Origin: Citrobacter gillenii
GTDB lineage: Bacteria > Pseudomonadota > Gammaproteobacteria > Enterobacterales > Enterobacteriaceae
Length of the DNA stretch: 64,000 bases
Direction of reading: 5' to 3'
Assembly (NCBI RefSeq): GCF_013337685.1
Contig: NZ_SUQN01000007.1
Span: forward strand, 248,001-312,000
The notes beneath the pieces are model-generated. The model saw only the letters and a program-made list of their open reading frames with translations, did no database searches and was not told the DNA's origin. The stretch's first letter is position 1; the number at the start of each line of letters is the position of its first letter. A program made the position numbers and the translations under genes. Positions 54,491 through 64,000 of the stretch are shown here, piece after piece.

Positions 54491-56200
54491 ATGAAATTTA
54501 TTGGAAAGCTGCTTCTTTACGTGCTGATCGCCCTTGCAGTGGCGATCCTCGGTCTCTATTTTCTACTGCAAACCCGCTGGGGCGCCGAGCATGTCAGCGC
54601 CTGGGTGTCAGAGAACAGCAGCTACCACCTGACGTTTGATGCCATCGATCATCGGTTTTCTTCACCCTCCCACATTCTGCTGGAGAACGTCACCTTTGGT
54701 CGGGATGGCCAGCCTGCCACCCTGGTAGCAAAAAACGTTGATATTGGGCTGAGCAGTCGCCAAATCACCGACCCGCTGCACGTCGACACCATCCTGTTGC
54801 AAAACGGTACGCTGAATCTTTCTCCACAAACTGCACCGCTGCCGTTCCAGGCCGATCGCCTGCAGCTACAGGATATGGCACTCAACAGCCCCGGAAGCGA
54901 GTGGAACCTCAGTGCGCAGCGCGTGAACGGCGGCGTGATCCCCTGGAGCCCTGAAGCCGGAAAAATACTCGGCAGTAAAGCGCAGATCCAGCTCAGCGCC
55001 AGCTCGTTAACGCTGAACGATGTTCCTACGACTAACGTGCTGATTGAAGGCAGTATCGATAACGATCGCGTCACGTTAAGCAATATTGGCGCCGATGTGG
55101 CGCGCGGCGCATTGACCGGCGTGGCGCAGCGAAACCCCGACGGCAGTTGGGTGGTGGAAAATCTACGGCTAAACGACATTCGGTTGCAAAGCGATAAATC
55201 GCTGACCGACTTTTTTGCGCCGCTCACCACCATTCCCTCGCTGCAAATTGGTCGTCTTGAGGTGACAGATGCCCGTCTACAAGGCCCTGACTGGGCGGTA
55301 ACGGATCTCGATCTCAGCTTGCGCAACATGACCTTTAGTAAGGACGACTGGCAAACCCAGGAAGGTAAGTTGTCGATGAACGCCAGCGAATTTATCTACG
55401 GCTCGCTGCACTTCTTCGATCCTATTCTCAACGCTGAGTTCTCGCCGCAGGGCATTGCGCTGCGCCAGTTCACCACCCGCTGGGAAGGCGGTATGGTCAG
55501 AACCTCCGGCAACTGGTTGCGCAATAGCAAAGCGCTTGTTCTCGACGATGCCGCAGTTGCCGGGCTGGAATACACGCTACCGGAAAACTGGAAACCGCTG
55601 TGGGTGAAGCCCTTGCCCACCTGGCTCGACAGCCTGACGCTGAAGAAATTCAGCGCCAGCCGCAATCTGGTGATCGATATCGACCCAGCCTTCCCGTGGC
55701 AGCTCACCGCGCTGGACGGTTACGGCGCCAACCTCGGACTGGTGCAAAATCACCAGTGGGGGATCTGGAGCGGCAGCACCACGCTCAACGCCGCGGCCGC
55801 CACGTTTAACCGCACCGACGTACGCCGCCCTTCGCTGACGCTTACGGCCAACAGCAGCACGATCAATATCAGCGAACTGAGCGCGTATACCGAGAAAGGG
55901 TTGCTGGAGGCTACCGCCAGCATCTCACAACTTCCGCAGCGCCAGACGCAGGTCAGCCTGAACGGTCGCGGTGTGCCAATGACTATCCTACAACAGTGGG
56001 GATGGCCTGCGCTGCCGATTTCCGGCGACGGTAACATCCAACTGACTGCCAGCGGCACTCTGCACGCAGATACGCCGCTGAAGCCCACGGTGAACGGTCA
56101 ACTGCATGCGGTGAATGCCGACAAGCAGCAAGTGACACAGACCATGCAGGCGGGCGTTGTGTCGGGCAGTAACGTCACCGCTCCGCCGTCTGCTCAGTAA
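54491..56200 (+). CDS. yicH: AsmA-like inner-membrane protein YicH
   Basis: This 569-residue protein has one N-terminal membrane helix (about 5-25, LLLYVLIALAVAILGLYFLL) and a large periplasmic part of repeating beta structure, as in the AsmA/TamB/YhdP family linked to phospholipid movement between membranes. It is collinear with E. coli YicH. The start at MKFIGK follows GGAAGACC. It is a single gene. In E. coli K-12 yicI comes next; here a 6-kb sugar cluster intervenes. Confidence 0.93.
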   Translation: MKFIGKLLLYVLIALAVAILGLYFLLQTRWGAEHVSAWVSENSSYHLTFDAIDHRFSSPSHILLENVTFGRDGQPATLVAKNVDIGLSSRQITDPLHVDTILLQNGTLNLSPQTAPLPFQADRLQLQDMALNSPGSEWNLSAQRVNGGVIPWSPEAGKILGSKAQIQLSASSLTLNDVPTTNVLIEGSIDNDRVTLSNIGADVARGALTGVAQRNPDGSWVVENLRLNDIRLQSDKSLTDFFAPLTTIPSLQIGRLEVTDARLQGPDWAVTDLDLSLRNMTFSKDDWQTQEGKLSMNASEFIYGSLHFFDPILNAEFSPQGIALRQFTTRWEGGMVRTSGNWLRNSKALVLDDAAVAGLEYTLPENWKPLWVKPLPTWLDSLTLKKFSASRNLVIDIDPAFPWQLTALDGYGANLGLVQNHQWGIWSGSTTLNAAAATFNRTDVRRPSLTLTANSSTINISELSAYTEKGLLEATASISQLPQRQTQVSLNGRGVPMTILQQWGWPALPISGDGNIQLTASGTLHADTPLKPTVNGQLHAVNADKQQVTQTMQAGVVSGSNVTAPPSAQ

Positions 56201-56247
56201 TCTATTACCCAGGAAAGTATCGCCCGATAGCGCGAATGCTGTCGGGC

Positions 56248-56940
56248 TTACACACCCTCTCCCCGTAAACCATCATACTCGCCGCATAACAGCCATTTTG
56301 CCGGCTCGTTCTCTGTTATCGCCGGGAAGCGACCGCCCGGTTCGAGGAAGTGGTTATCGTGCTGGTCGTCATTCACCATCGAGATTTCCCAGCCCAGCAC
56401 AAACGCTTTCTCGGCCCAGAAGCGATGATACAAGCGCGGCGGAAGGCACACGCCCTGCCCCGGTTTCAGTACCAGCGTATCACCAGGTTTGCAGCTGCGC
56501 CGTTGACCATCCACGTTGACCTCAACCGCTCGCTGACCGTCATACTGCGCATCGGGTGTCGCCCACGCCAGCTGCATACATAAATCACCGCCGCCACGAT
56601 TCACAATGTCTTCCATCTTATGCGTATGAAAATGCCACGGTGTTTGTTGATCCTGCTGAATTTGTAGCATTTTTTCGGCATAGGGCTTGGGATAGTTTGC
56701 TGAACCCCACAAACCATTACGCAACGTCAGCAACGTCAGCCCGGTTTGCGCAAAATCCCCGCGGCCAAAGTCGGTAATGTCCCACCCCAGCTGGAGATCA
56801 CGCACTTCACGCCATTTAGCCCAATCCTGCTGTCGCCAGGCATCGGCGGTGAAATATGCAAAATCGGGCAGGCACAGTCGAAAGGTTTCGGCGATGGCAT
56901 GCGCTTTATCAATGGCATAATTAATCTGAGAACGCTTCAT
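56248..56940 (-). CDS. D-lyxose ketol-isomerase family protein (cupin)
   Basis: This 230-residue cupin carries the family's metal site in PWHFHTHKMEDIVNRGGGDL (two His and a Glu) and a second His in LPPRLYHRFWA. Known members isomerise D-lyxose to D-xylulose and D-mannose to D-fructose. It is the last gene of the leftward PTS cluster, 49 bases after the nearer aldolase. In this setting it may act on a free or phosphorylated aldose of the same pathway; the true substrate is unknown. Confidence 0.85.
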   Translation of the reverse strand: MKRSQINYAIDKAHAIAETFRLCLPDFAYFTADAWRQQDWAKWREVRDLQLGWDITDFGRGDFAQTGLTLLTLRNGLWGSANYPKPYAEKMLQIQQDQQTPWHFHTHKMEDIVNRGGGDLCMQLAWATPDAQYDGQRAVEVNVDGQRRSCKPGDTLVLKPGQGVCLPPRLYHRFWAEKAFVLGWEISMVNDDQHDNHFLEPGGRFPAITENEPAKWLLCGEYDGLRGEGV

Positions 56941-56989
56941 TCCACTTTTCCCTGTCGCGAAAGAGGCGGGTCACCCCGCCTGCATGCCG

Positions 56990-57850
56990 TTAGTAAAGTG
57001 ATGCTTTTCCGGTAGAGCCGAACAGCTTCATTTTGTGGCGGATCACATCCCGCGCGGCGCTGATTGCTTCCGGGTAGATCACGTTCGGATCCCACCAGGT
57101 CTCTTTCGCCAGGATTTCGCGGACTTTCTGGAAGTAGGCGTATTTCATGTCGCTGGAAATATTGATTTTGCCCACGCCCAGCGTGACGGACTCGGCGATT
57201 TCCGCATCCGGGTTCGCTGAACCGCCGTGCAGCACCAAGGGAATATCCAGTCGTCCGGCGATATCGCGCAGGATGTTCATTTGCAGCTCAGGCTGCATCC
57301 CTTTCGGGTAGATCCCATGCGCGGTACCAATCGCCACCGCCAGCGTGTCCGCACCGGTACGGGCGATAAAGTCCTCTGCCTGGGCCGGGTCGGTATAGGT
57401 GACTTTCGACACACCGCCTTCCACTGAGGTTCCGGTTTGGCCAATCGTTCCCAGTTCCCCCTCAACCGAAACGCCTACTGCATGCGCCAGTCGGACCACT
57501 TCCTTCGTTAACGCCACATTGTCTTCATACGGCAACAGCGAGCCGTCAATCATCACCGAAGTAAACCCGCACTGAATCGCCCGCAGCACATGCTCCACCG
57601 ACGCGCCGTGATCCAGATGCAGCGTGAACGGCACCGGGCTGCGCAGGGTGATATCGCGGACATAGCTAAAGAACGCATCACCGAGGAAATCATGCTCACT
57701 GGGGTGAATAGAGATAATTGCTGGCGTGTTGGTTGCTTCTGCTTCTTCCACCACGGCGCGCACGAAGCAGCTGTCCGCGACGTTAAATGCGCCAATGGCA
57801 AAACCGTGCTGACGGGTCGGTTGCAGTATTTCTTTCATCGAAACTAACAT
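56990..57850 (-). CDS. Class II ketose-bisphosphate aldolase, copy A
   Basis: This 286-residue aldolase of the FbaA/GatY/KbaY superfamily has a complete metal and phosphate site: TLHLDHGAS (catalytic Asp, zinc His), VEGELGT (Glu), AIGTAHGIYPKG (zinc His), VLHGGSAN (zinc His) and KINISSD (Asn). It should split a ketose phosphate to dihydroxyacetone phosphate plus an aldehyde. It is downstream of the second aldolase by 80 bases. Whether it prefers a fructose-, tagatose- or other bisphosphate is not deducible. An ATG at residue 5 is an alternative start. Confidence 0.88.
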   Translation of the reverse strand: MLVSMKEILQPTRQHGFAIGAFNVADSCFVRAVVEEAEATNTPAIISIHPSEHDFLGDAFFSYVRDITLRSPVPFTLHLDHGASVEHVLRAIQCGFTSVMIDGSLLPYEDNVALTKEVVRLAHAVGVSVEGELGTIGQTGTSVEGGVSKVTYTDPAQAEDFIARTGADTLAVAIGTAHGIYPKGMQPELQMNILRDIAGRLDIPLVLHGGSANPDAEIAESVTLGVGKINISSDMKYAYFQKVREILAKETWWDPNVIYPEAISAARDVIRHKMKLFGSTGKASLY

Positions 57851-57930
57851 GTTAATTCTCCAGTTTCAGGGTGTAGAAAGCCCTGCCAGTGCGTCATCGC
57901 AGAGGCATAGAAGGCGTTACAGAAAATGAA

Positions 57931-58782
57931 TCAGGCTTTGTCGATAGCGCCGCTGGCCTGTAGGTAAGGAATAATGGCTTCCTCGCAGGCTTGTTCCATC
58001 ACCGCCAGAGCATCAACGAGCTCACAGGATTGGTCCCGACAAAGGGTATGTAGCAACGCAGCCTTTCCAGCTTCGAAGACCGCCGCGCCTACGTTAATCT
58101 TGGCGACGCCAAACGTCGGACAGCGTCGGAGCTGATCGAACGGCGTACCGCTACCGCCATGCAGCGCCAGTGGCACCGTCGATAAATGCGCTATCGCCTC
58201 CAGACGCTGAAAATCGATGGCCGGGGTCACTCCCGGGGCATACATGCCGTGCGCCGTCCCCACCGAAACGGCCAGCAAGTCGATCCCGGTCTGCTGGATA
58301 AATGGCACCACGTCGGCGGTCTGGGTCATCAAGTCAACGTTAGCGGCATGGTCATAGCACGGCGCATCCGCGAGGTGGCCCAGTTCCCCTTCCACACACA
58401 GCTGCACGCTGGCGGCAAGTTCCACCACCGCGCGGGTCTGACGGATATTCTCTTCCAGCGCAAACGCGGAGGCGTCGATCATCAAGCCACTGAATCCAGC
58501 GCGGAACGCCTGGCGAATGCGTGCCGGATCTTTGCCGTGATCCAGCGCCAGAGCAACCGGTACGGAGGCGTCTTCCGCTAGGGTTTTCACCACCGCTGCC
58601 GCTATTGATGCAGGGAAATGCTCCAGATGCCCCTGATACAGATTCAGAATGATCGGTGCACGGTGTTTCTCTGCTACCCGTACCGCCGCCCGGGCGCTTT
58701 CCAGGTTCATACAGTTGATCGCCAGCAGCGCGTATTGTTCACGCCAGGCTTTCGTCACCATGCTTTTCATATCGGCAAACAT
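57931..58782 (-). CDS. Class II ketose-bisphosphate aldolase, copy B
   Basis: This 283-residue paralog of copy A is clearly diverged. It keeps the site residues: ALALDHGKDPA, VEGELGH, VGTAHGMYAPG, ALHGGSGTP, KINVGA. So both copies look catalytically able, unlike GatY/GatZ-type pairs in which one partner lacks the site. It is 11 bases after the EIIC gene and probably coupled. A different substrate stereochemistry from copy A is possible; that is inference. Confidence 0.86.
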   Translation of the reverse strand: MFADMKSMVTKAWREQYALLAINCMNLESARAAVRVAEKHRAPIILNLYQGHLEHFPASIAAAVVKTLAEDASVPVALALDHGKDPARIRQAFRAGFSGLMIDASAFALEENIRQTRAVVELAASVQLCVEGELGHLADAPCYDHAANVDLMTQTADVVPFIQQTGIDLLAVSVGTAHGMYAPGVTPAIDFQRLEAIAHLSTVPLALHGGSGTPFDQLRRCPTFGVAKINVGAAVFEAGKAALLHTLCRDQSCELVDALAVMEQACEEAIIPYLQASGAIDKA

Positions 58783-58793
58783 ACGGCCTCCGG

Positions 58794-59885
58794 TTATTCG
58801 AGGGTGAAGGTGATCTCTTCGTCTTTCAGCTTTTGATCGCTGAGCTCGTCAAACTCTTCGTCGCGCTCGGTCACCGGTTTCTTCCACAGCGACAGCATGA
58901 CCCCGCAGATCGCCGTGCCAATGCCCAGTGCCAGGCAGAACAACAGCGGATGGGTAAAGAGTGGGACGACAAACATGCCACCGTGCGGGACCGGGCTTTC
59001 GACGCCCCACACCATAATCAATCCACCCGCTACTGCAGAGGCCACCACGCAGGAGCCCACCACGCGCAGCAGGTCGCGTGCAGCAATTGGAATAACCCCT
59101 TCGGTTATCATGCAAATCCCCATCGGGAATGCCGCCTTCAGCGCTTCGCGCTCAGCACGGGTGTACTTATGCCGCGTCAGCAGGAAGGAAAGCGTGATGC
59201 CAAACGGCGGGATAATCGAGCCGACAAATTTCACCGCCTCCGGGCCGTACACGCCGCTGACCAGCATACCGTCCGCAAACAGCGACATGGTTTTATTCAC
59301 CGGACCGCCGAAGTCGAACGTCGCCATCGCGCCGAGGATCGCGCCCATCAGAAAGCGCGACCCACCCTGCATGGACTCCAGCAGATGAATTAACGCGTCC
59401 TGCAGCCAGGCAATCGGCTTGCCAATTAACGTCATCATCAACAGGCCGCCAATCACCGTGCTCAGCACTGGTAGCACCATGATGGGCATCAACCCCTGCA
59501 TCGACTGCGGCAAACGGATGTAGCGTTTCAGCAGCAACACGGTGTAACCCACCAGAAATCCGCCCAGCATCCCGCCAATGAAACCGGTATGAATTTCGCC
59601 GCAGACATAACCAACAATCAGACCTGGCGCAAAGCCGGGGCGATCGGCAATGGAATAGGCAATCGCCGCACTGATTAACGGAACGATTAGCCCCATTCCC
59701 CAACCGCCAATCTGGTTGAGCATCCAGGGTATGGTTCCGGTTTTCTCACCGACGTTAGTGCCACCGAGTATTTGCCCGAGGGCAATACAAATCCCTGCGG
59801 CAACGATTAACGGGATCATCCACGAAATCCCCGTTAATAAATGTCTTTTTATTTCCTGTGATAGTGGAACTGTATTTTCACTCAT
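58794..59885 (-). CDS. PTS fructose-family enzyme IIC
   Basis: This 363-residue membrane subunit forms the sugar channel. The pattern is typical of the fructose family: LLTGISWMIPLIVAAGICIA at the N-terminus, GFIGGMLGGFLVGYTV, FDFGGPVNKTMSLFADGML (the conserved GGPVNK loop) and MITEGVIPIAARDLLRV. The C-terminal tail is charged and extends beyond the last helix. It is 26 bases after the EIIB gene. Fructose-family EIIs usually give a ketose-1-phosphate. Confidence 0.92.
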   Translation of the reverse strand: MSENTVPLSQEIKRHLLTGISWMIPLIVAAGICIALGQILGGTNVGEKTGTIPWMLNQIGGWGMGLIVPLISAAIAYSIADRPGFAPGLIVGYVCGEIHTGFIGGMLGGFLVGYTVLLLKRYIRLPQSMQGLMPIMVLPVLSTVIGGLLMMTLIGKPIAWLQDALIHLLESMQGGSRFLMGAILGAMATFDFGGPVNKTMSLFADGMLVSGVYGPEAVKFVGSIIPPFGITLSFLLTRHKYTRAEREALKAAFPMGICMITEGVIPIAARDLLRVVGSCVVASAVAGGLIMVWGVESPVPHGGMFVVPLFTHPLLFCLALGIGTAICGVMLSLWKKPVTERDEEFDELSDQKLKDEEITFTLE

Positions 59886-59911
59886 GTGAGTTCCCTCCAG
59901 AATGAGGATCG

Positions 59912-60232
59912 CTACTGGTTTGTCGTAACCAGCGATTTTTCAACCTTTTCAAGAAACTGAATAGGCGATTTAATAACAATTTCTGTTTTCACCCGCACAA
60001 TGCGTTTATTAGAAAAGCGTTCTTCTCCTTTTATTTTCACATCCACCGCCAGAATCACGACGTCAGCGGCAGAAATATCCGCCATCAGTAATTCGTTTTC
60101 CGTGCCGATGGTACCCTGCGTTTCAACCTTAATATTATGACCAAGCGCCTTTGCCCCTTTAATGAGCTTCTCGCGGGCAATATAGGTGTGTGCAATACCC
60201 GCCGTACAGGCGGCAACACAAACAATATTCAT
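59912..60232 (-). CDS. PTS fructose-family enzyme IIB
   Basis: This 106-residue phosphocarrier takes phosphate from EIIA and gives it to the sugar. The active cysteine is Cys9 in VAACTAGIAHTYIARE, the fructose-type IIB motif. The start at MNIVCVAAC is chosen because GGAG lies six bases before it; an ATG four codons earlier overlaps that site. It stands alone rather than fused to IIC, as in the Frw and Fry type systems. Confidence 0.92.
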   Translation of the reverse strand: MNIVCVAACTAGIAHTYIAREKLIKGAKALGHNIKVETQGTIGTENELLMADISAADVVILAVDVKIKGEERFSNKRIVRVKTEIVIKSPIQFLEKVEKSLVTTNQ

Positions 60233-60251
60233 AGCATGCTCCATATTTTAT

Positions 60252-60725
60252 TTAGCAGACATTGGATTCAGCATATTGACTAAACAGCTCAATAATTTTC
60301 TGTGGACTACTCTCAACCAATAATTGTTCAATAATTTCATCATCCGCCAGCGCTCCGGCAACCTGCGAGAGCAGGCGAATATGCGTAGTGTTTTGATCTT
60401 CAAGACGGACGGCAAACAATATAATGCACCGTACATTGCTACCGTCCAGAGTTTCCCAGGGAATATCCTGGCGCGTACGGCCGATCGCCAGCGTGGTATT
60501 CACCACCGCCGAAGATTTTCCGTGTGGAATCGCAATATGATTTTCAAAGCCGGTTGAACCCTCTGACTCACGCTGCCAGACATCCTGAATAAACGTTTCC
60601 CGACAGCTAATTGCGCCATCCTTTTGCAGAATATCTGTCAGTTCCTCAATAGCCTCCGTTTTACTTGTAGCCTTCATATCTAAAATAACGCGATTTGTAT
60701 TGAGTATTTTCGTGATGTCCATCAA
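60252..60725 (-). CDS. PTS fructose-family enzyme IIA
   Basis: This 157-residue EIIA domain protein has the phospho-histidine His68 in NHIAIPHGKSSAV, in the mannitol/fructose EIIA fold. It accepts phosphate from HPr and passes it to the IIB next door. It is 23 bases after the regulator gene and first of the transport genes. It could also phosphorylate the regulator's PRD domains or EIIB-like domain (family knowledge). Confidence 0.92.
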   Translation of the reverse strand: MMDITKILNTNRVILDMKATSKTEAIEELTDILQKDGAISCRETFIQDVWQRESEGSTGFENHIAIPHGKSSAVVNTTLAIGRTRQDIPWETLDGSNVRCIILFAVRLEDQNTTHIRLLSQVAGALADDEIIEQLLVESSPQKIIELFSQYAESNVC

Positions 60726-60748
60726 TCATACCTCATGGAGTTCAGACA

Positions 60749-62302
60749 TTAATTTTCGACGACCAGCGACGTCGCTCGATGTAATTTTTCGGTGATAACC
60801 GTTTCTGTTACTCTTTTAATATCCGCATCATTGAAGAAGGCGGTGACATACACGACGGGCATCGCAATAGTGGGTAGATTGATTGTCGACACCACCAGTT
60901 CAATATCGTCCGTCAGTATGGAGGGTAAACTGCCCGCTGATACCACACCCACGATGGTCCAGTCCGGGAAGGCGCGCAGAATGCGACTTTTAAGTAAATG
61001 AGACGTACCAATACCGGTTGAGCAAACCAGCAGCACGCGCTTGCGGGCAATCTGCCGCTCCATAGCGGCCTGAAAATGCACGGTTAGGTACCCGACCTCA
61101 TCTTCCGACACGGCACGCTCGCCCCAGCCGCTAAACACCCGATTAACCGCGCAAAGCGTTAAACGCCAGACGTCCTGCAGTTCGCCTTTAATATCGTCCA
61201 GTAGCGGGTTACGAATACGGATCTGATAGTTCAGCCGGTTAATCAGCGGCTTAATATGAATCAGTAATCCGTCATACAGCGCGGTATCCTCGCTGAGGTC
61301 ACTGTCGACCATCTCGGCAAAAATCGCGATCAGCCGATGGGTAATCAGCCGCGCTTCATCGCTGGAGTGCATATGACCGATAGCGCTGACGTCGTTATGC
61401 TCTTCTATCATTACGCCAGAGGAGATAATATATTGATAAATAAACCAGACTTCATCTTTCGGTAGCGGATGAACAATGCGTTTTTCGATACGCTGAATCA
61501 TTCGGTTCGCAATAGAAAAGATGCTTTCATCAAATGAGTTTATATTTTCCTCTTTTCTCGGCAACGCATTGCCCCGGGTGATGCGATACATCATGATCAA
61601 TATATGGGTAAAGATATTGATGTAATAAGGCTCGCCCAGCGACCAGCACAAATCGTTCTCCATTTCCTGTAGCAGCGTTTGCACAAATAAAACGTCTTCT
61701 TCACCAAAATAATGTACTAACGCTTTATAGCTGCCAGGATCAAGGCGTGAATAAACGACACTACCGGGTTCATTATGGTTAATTACACCGTTAATCAGTG
61801 AAGCCATAGCCTGACGTACACCACTCTCACTGCCTTCAATGTGCGTCCCACTCTGGCTACGGATCAGAGATAATCCCAGCGGGGTTATCCATGATTCAAT
61901 CACTTTCAGGTCGTTCACAATCGATGCGCTGCTGATAAAATAGCGCTCAGATAATTTGCTGATGGACGTTTCGTGTGGCGTTTCACTTAATAACTGCGAT
62001 GCTATTTTTACGCGCCGTGAATTATTCATCATACCATCAGCGTCATCACCCTCTGCGCCCAATAGCTGATCCAGCGATAAAAGATCGGTAATATTATCAA
62101 CACTTAGCATCACGCCAGCCCCGGCGCGTTTATCAATAGTTATTTTCCATTCCGATAACCACTGTTCCAGTAGCCGTAGATCGCGCTGCACAGTCTTCTC
62201 TGAAACCGTTAAATGTTCGGCGATTTTCAGCAGCGTGACATATTCCTTCCGGGACAGAAGGAATTTTAATAATCTGTTTTGTCGCGAGGTAATCATTTGC
62301 AT
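60749..62302 (-). CDS. PRD-containing transcriptional regulator (BglG/MtlR type)
   Basis: This 517-residue multi-domain regulator is the first gene of the PTS cluster. The N-terminal helix-turn-helix (about 15-60, TLLKIAEHLTVSEKTVQRDL) is followed by a second DNA-binding-like region, two PTS regulation domains (about 190-400) and a C-terminal EIIB-like domain with the cysteine motif LLVCSTGIGTSHLLKSRI. It lacks the terminal EIIA domain of MtlR/LicR types; the separate EIIA next door may serve. It is most likely a DNA-binding activator of this cluster rather than an antiterminator, since it has a helix-turn-helix and not a CAT RNA-binding domain. Confidence 0.88.
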   Translation of the reverse strand: MQMITSRQNRLLKFLLSRKEYVTLLKIAEHLTVSEKTVQRDLRLLEQWLSEWKITIDKRAGAGVMLSVDNITDLLSLDQLLGAEGDDADGMMNNSRRVKIASQLLSETPHETSISKLSERYFISSASIVNDLKVIESWITPLGLSLIRSQSGTHIEGSESGVRQAMASLINGVINHNEPGSVVYSRLDPGSYKALVHYFGEEDVLFVQTLLQEMENDLCWSLGEPYYINIFTHILIMMYRITRGNALPRKEENINSFDESIFSIANRMIQRIEKRIVHPLPKDEVWFIYQYIISSGVMIEEHNDVSAIGHMHSSDEARLITHRLIAIFAEMVDSDLSEDTALYDGLLIHIKPLINRLNYQIRIRNPLLDDIKGELQDVWRLTLCAVNRVFSGWGERAVSEDEVGYLTVHFQAAMERQIARKRVLLVCSTGIGTSHLLKSRILRAFPDWTIVGVVSAGSLPSILTDDIELVVSTINLPTIAMPVVYVTAFFNDADIKRVTETVITEKLHRATSLVVEN

Positions 62303-62637
62303 TATTTACCCTTATCACACACCAGATTAAATATCGAAAGAAGCGCTTACGCGCCACGTGTAATCCGTGATGATAAATATAAAAGGACTACGATGCGGCA
62401 ACAATACTAAATCGTGTCCTGTATTCCGGACAGAAATAAGACAAAAGAGGGAAATAGTGAGATATTTACGGCTCAGATCACATTTTTCGTGGGAAGTAGA
62501 GTGATTGCGCTCGCAAATATGGACAGGTAAAAAGATTAAGTCAGGATGTTTTTAATTTTCAGATCTGGAACGCTGCACGCACCGTGGTGCCGGATAAGAC
62601 GCACTGCATCGCCATCCGGCACCACGTTCACATGCAC
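62303..62637. other. Intergenic region upstream of the PTS cluster, downstream of yicI
   Basis: This 335-base gene-free stretch must hold the leftward promoter of the regulator and PTS genes. Visible items are a CRP-like half-site TGTGATC (leftward, about 62476-62482), an interrupted palindrome TTGCG-CT-CGCAA at 62505-62516, a GTCC/GGAC repeat near 62417-62432, and a REP unit at 62583-62625. None is decisive alone. Confidence 0.5.
62583..62625. repeat. REP unit after yicI
   Basis: CGTGGTGCCGGAT (62583-62595) is mirrored by ATCCGGCACCACG (62613-62625), with a REP-like core (GACGCACTGCATCGCC). It lies directly after the yicI stop and may stabilise or terminate that transcript. Confidence 0.85.
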
Positions 62638-64000
62638 TTACAGGGTAATGGTCAACACATTGCCTTCTGCTGCAATCACCACACCCCACTCGCTCCCTGT
62701 AGATGAACCGCCCTTCACGCCGCCAATTTGCGGGATGTTACGCAGACACAGCGTCCAGTTGCGCGCCTCGCCCTCCCCCGTCACGGTGATGGTGTTATCC
62801 ACACGTTTCGCCCTCAGCGTGAAGATAACCGAGCCGTCAGCGGCCGGCACGTCACAGACGGCTTCACGCCCCTCCTCCAGATGGAACAGCTGGAACGCAG
62901 TGCCTTCATGCCAGGCGTAATCCGGCTTCTGGTTATTGCTGCCCAGCGCCAGCAGGGTGTTATCACGCACGTAGACCGGCAGGCTCAGGAAGTCATGCTG
63001 CTGTTTATGCCAGCGACTGCCCACAATCTCGTCGTTACGCCACAGGTGCGTCCAGCGACCTTCCGGTAGGTAGAACTGCACATCTCCCGCTTCAGAGAAC
63101 ACCGGGGCCACCATCACGCTGTCTCCCAGCATGTACTGACGGTCAAGGTAATCACACGCCGGATCGTCCGGGAATTCGAGCATCATCGCACGCATCATCG
63201 GCGTGCCATACTCGCTGGCGCGCACAGCTTCGCGATACAGATACGGCATCATGCGGCATTTCTGCTCGGTGAAGTAACGCACCACATCGCAGGATTCGTC
63301 GTCGTACGCCCATGGTACGCGGTAGGATTTGCTGCCGTGCAGACGACTGTGGCTGGAGAGCAGCCCAAACGCACACCAGCGTTTGTAGACGTGCGCCGGG
63401 GCGGTATTCTCGAAGCCGCCGATGTCGTGACTCCAGAAGCCAAAGCCGGACAAGCCGATGGATAAGCCACCGCGCAAGCTTTCCGCCATTGATTCGTAGT
63501 TGGCGTAGCAGTCGCCGCCCCAGTGCACCGGAAACTGCTGCGCGCCCACGGAAGCAGAACGGGCGAACAGCACCGCCTCTTCTTCCCCCACGGTCTCTTT
63601 CAGCACGTTCCACACCAGTTCGTTGTAGATGAACGCATAATGGTTGTGCATTTTCTGCGGGTCAGCGCCGTCAAACCACTGCACATCCGTCGGGATACGC
63701 TCGCCAAAATCAGTCTTGAAGCAGTCCACGCCGATATCCACCAGGCCTTTCAGCTTGTTGGCATACCACTCGCAGGCCTCTGGATTGGTAAAGTCATAAA
63801 TCGCCAACCCCGGCTGCCATTTATCCCACTGCCACACCGATCCATCCGGCCGCTTAAGCAGATAGCCTTTTTCTTTCAGTTCGTTGAACAGCGGCGATTT
63901 CTGCCCGATGTACGGGTTGATCCACACGCAGACCTTCAGGCCTTTCTCCTTCAGGCGACGGAGCATGCCTTCCGGGTCCGGGAACGTCACCGGGTCCCAC
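62638..64000 (-). CDS. yicI: Alpha-xylosidase YicI (3' part; gene runs off the window)
   Basis: This GH31 enzyme cleaves alpha-xylosides such as isoprimeverose. About 454 C-terminal residues are present of roughly 772 in E. coli; the 5' end lies beyond position 64000. The frame begins at WDPVTFPDPEG. The catalytic nucleophile is in CFKTDFGERIP, the acid/base Asp in HWGGDCYANYES, and FGFWSHDIGGFE is the GH31 signature. The C-terminal beta domains follow. The last dozen residues differ from E. coli and end LTITL. Confidence 0.97.
   Translation of the reverse strand, partial: WDPVTFPDPEGMLRRLKEKGLKVCVWINPYIGQKSPLFNELKEKGYLLKRPDGSVWQWDKWQPGLAIYDFTNPEACEWYANKLKGLVDIGVDCFKTDFGERIPTDVQWFDGADPQKMHNHYAFIYNELVWNVLKETVGEEEAVLFARSASVGAQQFPVHWGGDCYANYESMAESLRGGLSIGLSGFGFWSHDIGGFENTAPAHVYKRWCAFGLLSSHSRLHGSKSYRVPWAYDDESCDVVRYFTEQKCRMMPYLYREAVRASEYGTPMMRAMMLEFPDDPACDYLDRQYMLGDSVMVAPVFSEAGDVQFYLPEGRWTHLWRNDEIVGSRWHKQQHDFLSLPVYVRDNTLLALGSNNQKPDYAWHEGTAFQLFHLEEGREAVCDVPAADGSVIFTLRAKRVDNTITVTGEGEARNWTLCLRNIPQIGGVKGGSSTGSEWGVVIAAEGNVLTITL

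Follow-up and report, generated by a model that had tools for sequence, protein, structure and literature searches.

In a 64,000-nucleotide stretch of the Citrobacter gillenii genome (contig NZ_SUQN01000007.1; hereafter, the window), seven intact open reading frames (ORFs), all oriented leftward, fill positions 56248-62302 between yicH and yicI. They encode a PRD-type activator, separate enzyme II subunits A, B and C (EIIA, EIIB, EIIC) of a fructose-family phosphotransferase system (PTS), two class II aldolases, designated here ald1 and ald2, and a cupin of the D-lyxose/D-mannose isomerase family (Table 1). Families were assigned with Pfam and NCBIfam profiles, all of the Pfam matches being above cut-off. 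The original prediction for this region described an unassigned sugar pathway, inserted between two genes that are adjacent in Escherichia coli K-12. The ORF listing and the profile searches bear out its genes, families, order and coordinates, and in K-12 MG1655 the facing ends of yicH and yicI indeed lie at 3832166 and 3832219, 52 bp apart. The observation is confirmed, and the interpretation is partly supported, as discussed below. That the genes were inserted is not established, since the same operon is found between the same yicH and yicI flanks in Escherichia, Citrobacter and Superficieibacter.

Table 1. Genes and candidate sites of the seven-gene locus, in window coordinates
Feature	Position	Strand	Evidence or remark
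PRD/Mga-type activator, 517 amino acids	60749..62302	-	HTH_11, Mga and PRD domains; EIIB-like match weak
PTS EIIA, fructose family	60252..60725	-	TIGR00848, 128.2 bits against a cut-off of 103.5
PTS EIIB, fructose family	59912..60244	-	TIGR00829, 99.4 bits against a cut-off of 76.85
PTS EIIC, fructose family	58794..59885	-	TIGR01427, 306.9 bits against a cut-off of 157.55
Class II aldolase 1 (ald1)	57931..58782	-	PF01116; above no NCBIfam cut-off
Class II aldolase 2 (ald2)	56990..57850	-	PF01116; PRK08185 subfamily, 514 bits against a cut-off of 405
D-lyxose/D-mannose isomerase-family cupin	56248..56940	-	PF07385, above cut-off
GC hairpin GGCGGGGTGACCCGCC	56965..56980	-	immediately downstream of ald2
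Conserved block TTTAGTATTGT	62401..62411	-	adjoins the palindrome; candidate promoter element
Palindrome TGTCC-N8-GGACA	62415..62432	.	conserved; candidate operator of the PRD activator
Presumed CRP-like site	62500..62516	-	upstream of the palindrome; judged by eye against the consensus

Sequence and position identify the locus as orthologous to frz, an operon of extraintestinal E. coli. In L033, an annotated copy from E. coli (L numbers denote the loci of our survey), the order runs yicH, isomerase, ROK kinase, ald2, ald1, EIIC, EIIB, EIIA, activator, yicI, and the window proteins are 77-96% identical to their counterparts there. The yicH-yicI site, the three fructose-family PTS subunits, the PRD/Mga activator, a class II ketose aldolase and the cupin are thus all present, and the ROK sugar kinase is absent, for which reason we class the locus as a variant of frz and not as its canonical form. 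The operon itself is already known; the kinase-less, Citrobacter-type form is a new variant. In the excerpts on which our literature statements are based, PMC12928451 applies the name frz operon to yicH..yicI in strain BEN2908 and cites earlier work tying it to fitness, adhesion and internalisation; PMC8777976, PMC3325963, PMC6727828 and PMC6238794 partly repeat these statements, and together the five papers document published fitness and fimbriae phenotypes. A relation between Listeria lmo2133-2137 and the operon of extraintestinal E. coli is already stated in the excerpt of PMC2996996. No substrate assignment for frz was found in the portions of the literature searched, so the word "unassigned" holds for the substrate and fails for the locus; no paper was retrieved that connects ketose-1-phosphate cleavage to both a PTS and lyxose.

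Matches to the cluster exist in 1581 of 5426 complete E. coli genomes, with a query cover of at least 80% in 1573, and the isomerase gene alone likewise matches 1581 of the 5426. Within Citrobacter the core proteins are 92-99% identical to those of ten named copies, and ald1 is 92-95% identical to its counterparts in these ten loci as against 78-87% in other named enterobacterial loci, which makes a host from the freundii group of Citrobacter most likely. Occurrence rates are rough, the Enterobacterales genome sample having been drawn evenly: ald1 was detected in 34 of 392 Enterobacteriaceae genomes (E ≤1e-60; one of the 34 by a 41% match only) and 8 of 394 Enterobacterales genomes had a member of the ald2 subfamily (E ≤1e-90). 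A search of a plasmid collection returned 9 records at the E-value limit used. Activator, EIIA, EIIB, EIIC, ald1 and ald2 are kept together in two clades and in Listeria, and on this comparison we regard these six genes as the conserved core and the isomerase and ROK kinase as optional. Reduced sets, made up of EIIA, EIIBC and an aldolase resembling ald2, occur in Listeria, Pantoea and Enterococcus, and a reduced PTS-aldolase set with a different gene order in Carnobacterium, the statements on Listeria, Enterococcus and Carnobacterium being based on one or two loci each. ORFs in the survey were called mechanically, as the longest non-overlapping ones, and antisense ORFs replaced core genes in some loci. 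One further Enterobacteriaceae genome has a related set of PTS and aldolase genes (L120:2362-9847) that includes its own HPr, identified by Pfam, an Enzyme I-like protein, recognized by eye, and a small cupin whose match to ureidoglycolate lyase is weak and below cut-off.

None of the seven ORFs encodes a PfkB or ROK protein, which agrees with the original prediction that the set has no phosphofructokinase-type kinase, and the gap between ald2 and the isomerase gene is approximately 50 bp. It is exactly at this point that a ROK gene sits in the loci of Escherichia, Klebsiella, Kosakonia and Phytobacter. Of the ten named Citrobacter loci, two have the gene at this position and eight lack it, the isomerase being present in all eight. 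The absence of a kinase is therefore true of the window and, as judged from these comparisons, specific to some lineages; the original prediction, which had proposed comparing enterobacterial neighbourhoods, overlooked both the identity with frz and the ROK kinase of the orthologous operons. The gene list of the original 2009 frz paper is said to include a ROK kinase and a cupin.

To describe the variable tail, we tallied 47 loci, with presence judged by tblastn because of the mechanical ORF calling; repeated genomes and L069, L071, L073, L075, L076, L119 and L120 (same-species, simpler or more distant sets) are outside the tally. The isomerase alone occurs in 14 loci, ROK with isomerase in 12, ROK alone in 5 and neither in 16, so that the core lacks the isomerase in 21 of 47. 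In these counts L019 is scored as ROK (a partial match, with no isomerase), L124 as isomerase despite a ROK fragment, and L074 as neither despite a different, non-orthologous ROK gene after ald2, closest to ScrK (307 bits against a cut-off of 400). Parsimony on a FastTree phylogeny of EIIC and both aldolases requires seven changes for ROK and two for the isomerase, which indicates that ROK is the less stable of the two tail genes, and its loss in the Citrobacter-type lineage appears likelier than its gain. The clade carrying a nitroreductase-family gene between yicI and the activator (L121:13287-13961, by Pfam; similar ORFs in L122 and L123, by position) has the ROK gene and no isomerase.

Shortened ROK genes in two relatives (L124:9877-10350 and, in Kosakonia, L019:11856-12383) are consistent with repeated decay of the kinase. 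Together with the eight ROK-less Citrobacter loci, they could be taken to mean that the ROK step is essential and that its loss left a non-functional, decaying operon in this lineage. We consider this very improbable: all seven remaining genes are intact, the core is as strongly conserved among the Citrobacter copies as stated above, the isomerase persists in every ROK-less named Citrobacter locus, and the palindrome and candidate promoter block upstream of the activator are preserved. The E. coli ROK protein has the fructokinase model PRK09557 as its closest match, at 319 bits under a cut-off of 443. Of the seven ROK matches in the C. gillenii genome, the one nearest to the missing protein (L041, 43% identity) is a PRK09557 fructokinase of the Mak type, at 600 bits against the same cut-off.

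Both aldolases were aligned to FbaA, KbaY, GatY and YdjI, and residues are numbered according to K-12 FbaA. Ald1 and ald2 retain Asp109, His110, Glu174, His226, His264, Ser267 and Asn286, several of which have roles described in the excerpt of PMC5434028, including the catalytic Asp109 and the zinc ligands His110, His226 and His264. In the survey set, where some genomes were entered twice and the rows are thus not independent, Asp109 and the zinc ligands are retained in 58 of 58 ald2 and 53 of 53 ald1 sequences. In bisphosphate aldolases the second phosphate is anchored by residues corresponding to Arg331 and Ser61 of FbaA. Excerpts of PMC6692403 and PMC8119897 gave nothing usable on these anchor roles, and that of PMC10580955 yielded expression values only. 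Both anchors are lost in the window proteins, with Asn in ald2 and Val in ald1 at position 331 and His and Tyr, respectively, at position 61. Across the survey, position 331 is Arg in 0 of 57 ald2 sequences plus one gap (Asn 55, Ser 2, gap 1 of 58) and in 0 of 53 ald1 sequences; position 61 is His in all 58 ald2 sequences and, in ald1, Tyr in 50, Gly in 2 and Val in 1. K-12 FbaA, KbaY and GatY have Arg331 with Ser or Thr at 61 (Thr61 in GatY and KbaY), as do 5 of 5 matches to the tagatose-type model TIGR01858 (one being C. gillenii KbaY and one under the family cut-off) and 8 of 8 matches to the fructose-type model TIGR01859, which come from three genera, include three under cut-off and are near-identical around both sites. 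The solved fructose aldolases 7ncc, 7nc7 and 1rv8 carry DPR in the alignments. YdjI, in turn, lacks both anchors, with Leu at 331 and Gly at 61. Neither frz aldolase reaches an equivalog cut-off for fructose- or tagatose-bisphosphate aldolase (ald1 at best 208.7 of 343 bits), and ald2 exceeds the cut-off only for PRK08185, a "hypothetical protein" model, and the broad subfamily TIGR00167. Compared with bisphosphate aldolases, both frz enzymes share the zinc ligands and catalytic Asp and lack the second-phosphate anchors; 8q58 is a possible exception among the bisphosphate enzymes (see below). The Thr289 position is Ser in 58 of 58 ald2 and Ala in 47 of 53 ald1 sequences, which suggests that the first-phosphate site may differ too, most of all in ald1.

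The original prediction left two options, a kinase borrowed from elsewhere in the cell or an aldolase that cuts a ketose-1-phosphate directly. The loss of the anchors in both aldolases, shared with YdjI, favours direct cleavage over a bisphosphate route, with the overall balance being close to even. If a kinase were borrowed instead, the PTS would yield a ketose-6-phosphate (or 1-phosphate), a housekeeping phosphofructokinase would add the second phosphate, and the aldolases would cut a ketose-1,6-bisphosphate as in the use of galactitol and N-acetylgalactosamine. In K-12, gat and kba/aga are indeed clusters that join a PTS to a class II aldolase and contain no kinase gene, and the C. gillenii genome contains 16 PfkB-family matches; however, GatY and KbaY retain Thr61 and Arg331 and the frz aldolases do not, and we regard this rival as rather unlikely.

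The tail isomerase belongs to the D-lyxose/D-mannose isomerase family by PF07385 and by its cupin metal ligands HxH...E...H, read by eye from an alignment to 3kmh with the motif taken from a literature excerpt, and its activity is predicted on that basis. It falls below the NCBIfam equivalog NF051472 (259 bits against a cut-off of 350), is 47% identical to a second copy in the C. gillenii genome that scores 431, and among the ten named Citrobacter copies is more variable than ald2 (86-90% against 95-99% identity to the window). The second copy is part of another cluster (L137:8156-14377, C24 of the C. gillenii genome), together with a PfkB kinase, an aldolase of the PRK06801 type in which both anchor positions are Ala, and ABC importer ORFs recognized by eye; a response-regulator-like ORF adjoins. 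The surrounding stretch is covered to at least 80% in 400 of the 5426 E. coli genomes, and an annotated E. coli copy has the same genes. In L075 and L076, whose two genomes belong to one genus, an ald2-PTS set ends with a distant cupin of the lyxose-isomerase family. Isomerases, sugar kinases and anchor-less aldolases thus co-occur repeatedly in these comparisons.

In frz the isomerase would be barred from acting on the imported sugar, because the PTS delivers it already phosphorylated, and it would accordingly either salvage an aldose once released or serve as a side entry. The latter is implied by a pentulose route, in which D-xylulose, either imported or formed when the isomerase acts on D-lyxose, would be converted to xylulose-1-phosphate and split into dihydroxyacetone phosphate (DHAP) and glycolaldehyde. 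Such a route would suit the family of the isomerase, and the second cluster, which joins importer, kinase, anchor-less aldolase and isomerase, suggests a succession from aldose to ketose, ketose phosphate and cleavage. Against it stand the PTS, which precludes isomerization of the import as a first step, and the 21 loci in which no isomerase adjoins the core; we find it distinctly unlikely.

The explanation that we favour, and to which we give about an even chance, is that this is a Citrobacter-type frz operon without ROK in which one or both class II aldolases split a PTS-made ketose-1-phosphate directly, with the tail being accessory. A fructose-type PTS would bring in a ketose as the 1-phosphate, and this monophosphate would be split into DHAP plus an aldehyde or aldose bearing no phosphate, which would make a second phosphorylation ahead of cleavage unnecessary. 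In operons that have them, the lyxose-type isomerase would convert the free aldose to a ketose and the ROK kinase would phosphorylate that ketose into central metabolism; in this lineage a chromosomal kinase would have to carry out that phosphorylation, and the fructokinase L041 is the nearest candidate. The core occurs without its tail in Listeria L034 and in 16 of the 47 tallied loci, which have neither the isomerase nor an orthologous ROK. A more specific and unlikely extension is that frz is a PTS counterpart of sialic-acid-style use: a higher ketose of at least 7 carbons would be imported as its 1-phosphate and cleaved directly to DHAP and a free, lyxose- or mannose-configured aldose, which would reach central metabolism by way of the isomerase and an enzyme like the ROK fructokinases, whether the operon's own or a borrowed one.

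Several observations weigh against direct monophosphate cleavage with an accessory tail. Some fructose-family enzymes II, such as MngA, make 6-phosphates. The PDB chain 8q58, deposited as a ketose-bisphosphate aldolase, also lacks Arg331; either the Arg may not be universal in bisphosphate enzymes or the name may be loose. The model PRK06801, named "ketose 1,6-bisphosphate aldolase", covers the C. gillenii protein with Ala at both anchors. Both frz aldolases differ from FbaA at Glu182 and Asp288, which the excerpt of PMC5434028 ties to activity; in KbaY and GatY, position 182 is still Glu and position 288 is Ala. Finally, the simplest order of steps for the ABC-importer cluster puts the isomerase ahead of the aldolase, which makes the assumed order of the tail insecure. 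The titles of PDB entries 8q57 to 8q5a were considered as substrate evidence and set aside, being traceable to no paper. If the aldolases do act on a monophosphate, the substrate candidates narrow to ketose-1-phosphates, and the kinase becomes separable as an optional tail, with the Citrobacter form as a natural kinase-less comparison. This would matter for an operon with published links to fitness and adhesion in E. coli, and with a Listeria counterpart linked to it in one paper, as far as the excerpts of those sources go.

In an alignment of the regions preceding the activator gene, which leaves out L019, L020, L022 and L029, all 20 rows carry TTTAGTATTGT unchanged, and TGTCC-N8-GGACA is conserved across clades with small departures in some rows. 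At up to three mismatches, the combined motif is found in 16 of 26 further loci scanned and is absent from 10 (L034, L036, L037, L071, L073, L074, L116, L117, L119 and L120), L074 having, by eye, a palindrome with a longer spacer. Consensus scans of 56150-62750 returned four promoter sites and one terminator site, where shuffled sequence gave means of 6.6 and 6.8, and hence it is conservation that recommends the palindrome as operator. This site is probably where the PRD activator exerts its control of the operon, and it offers a direct handle on frz regulation. At the same tolerance, the combined pattern occurs once in the C. gillenii genome, at the frz operon; a kinase elsewhere under the same operator was considered and rejected, as no second regulon member with the pattern was found. 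Hairpins resembling GGCGGGGTGACCCGCC follow ald2 in six other loci inspected, with ROK present or absent. The EIIA and EIIB genes probably begin one and six codons, respectively, downstream of their listed starts, because the annotated E. coli genes encode 156 and 104 amino acids; residue 68 of EIIA, in IPHGKS, is the probable phosphohistidine and residue 13 of EIIB the probable phosphocysteine. A scan of the window gave no RNA elements or tRNA genes over threshold near the locus. Past the yicI stop codon, a perfect 13-bp inverted repeat, CGTGGTGCCGGAT, at 62583-62626 resembles a repetitive extragenic palindromic element or a terminator.

Among known systems, frz of extraintestinal E. coli (BEN2908 and others) shares the yicH-yicI site and the order of all seven genes with the window, and differs by its eighth gene, the ROK kinase between ald2 and the isomerase. 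Listeria monocytogenes lmo2133-lmo2138 (L034, whose strain uses other gene tags and was equated by gene content) has the activator, EIIA, EIIB, EIIC and two aldolases in the same order, the aldolases being 38% and 61% identical to those of the window; neither an isomerase nor a kinase adjoins. The E. coli class II enzyme YdjI, annotated as an octuluronate-1-phosphate aldolase, lacks the Arg331/Ser61 anchors like the frz aldolases and, according to its annotation and the literature excerpts, acts on a ketose-1-phosphate; in the ydj cluster, however, the phosphate is provided, by annotation, by the kinase YdjH and not by a PTS. The cluster of the lyxose isomerase EcSI (PDB 3kmh) places an isomerase beside an anchor-less class II aldolase, as frz does, with an ABC importer and a PfkB-type kinase where frz has its PTS. 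Lastly, since K-12 gat and kba/aga combine a PTS and a class II aldolase with no kinase in the cluster (a putative sugar kinase, yegV, lies approximately 4 kb beyond gatY), the kinase-less arrangement of the Citrobacter locus is, by analogy, not unusual.

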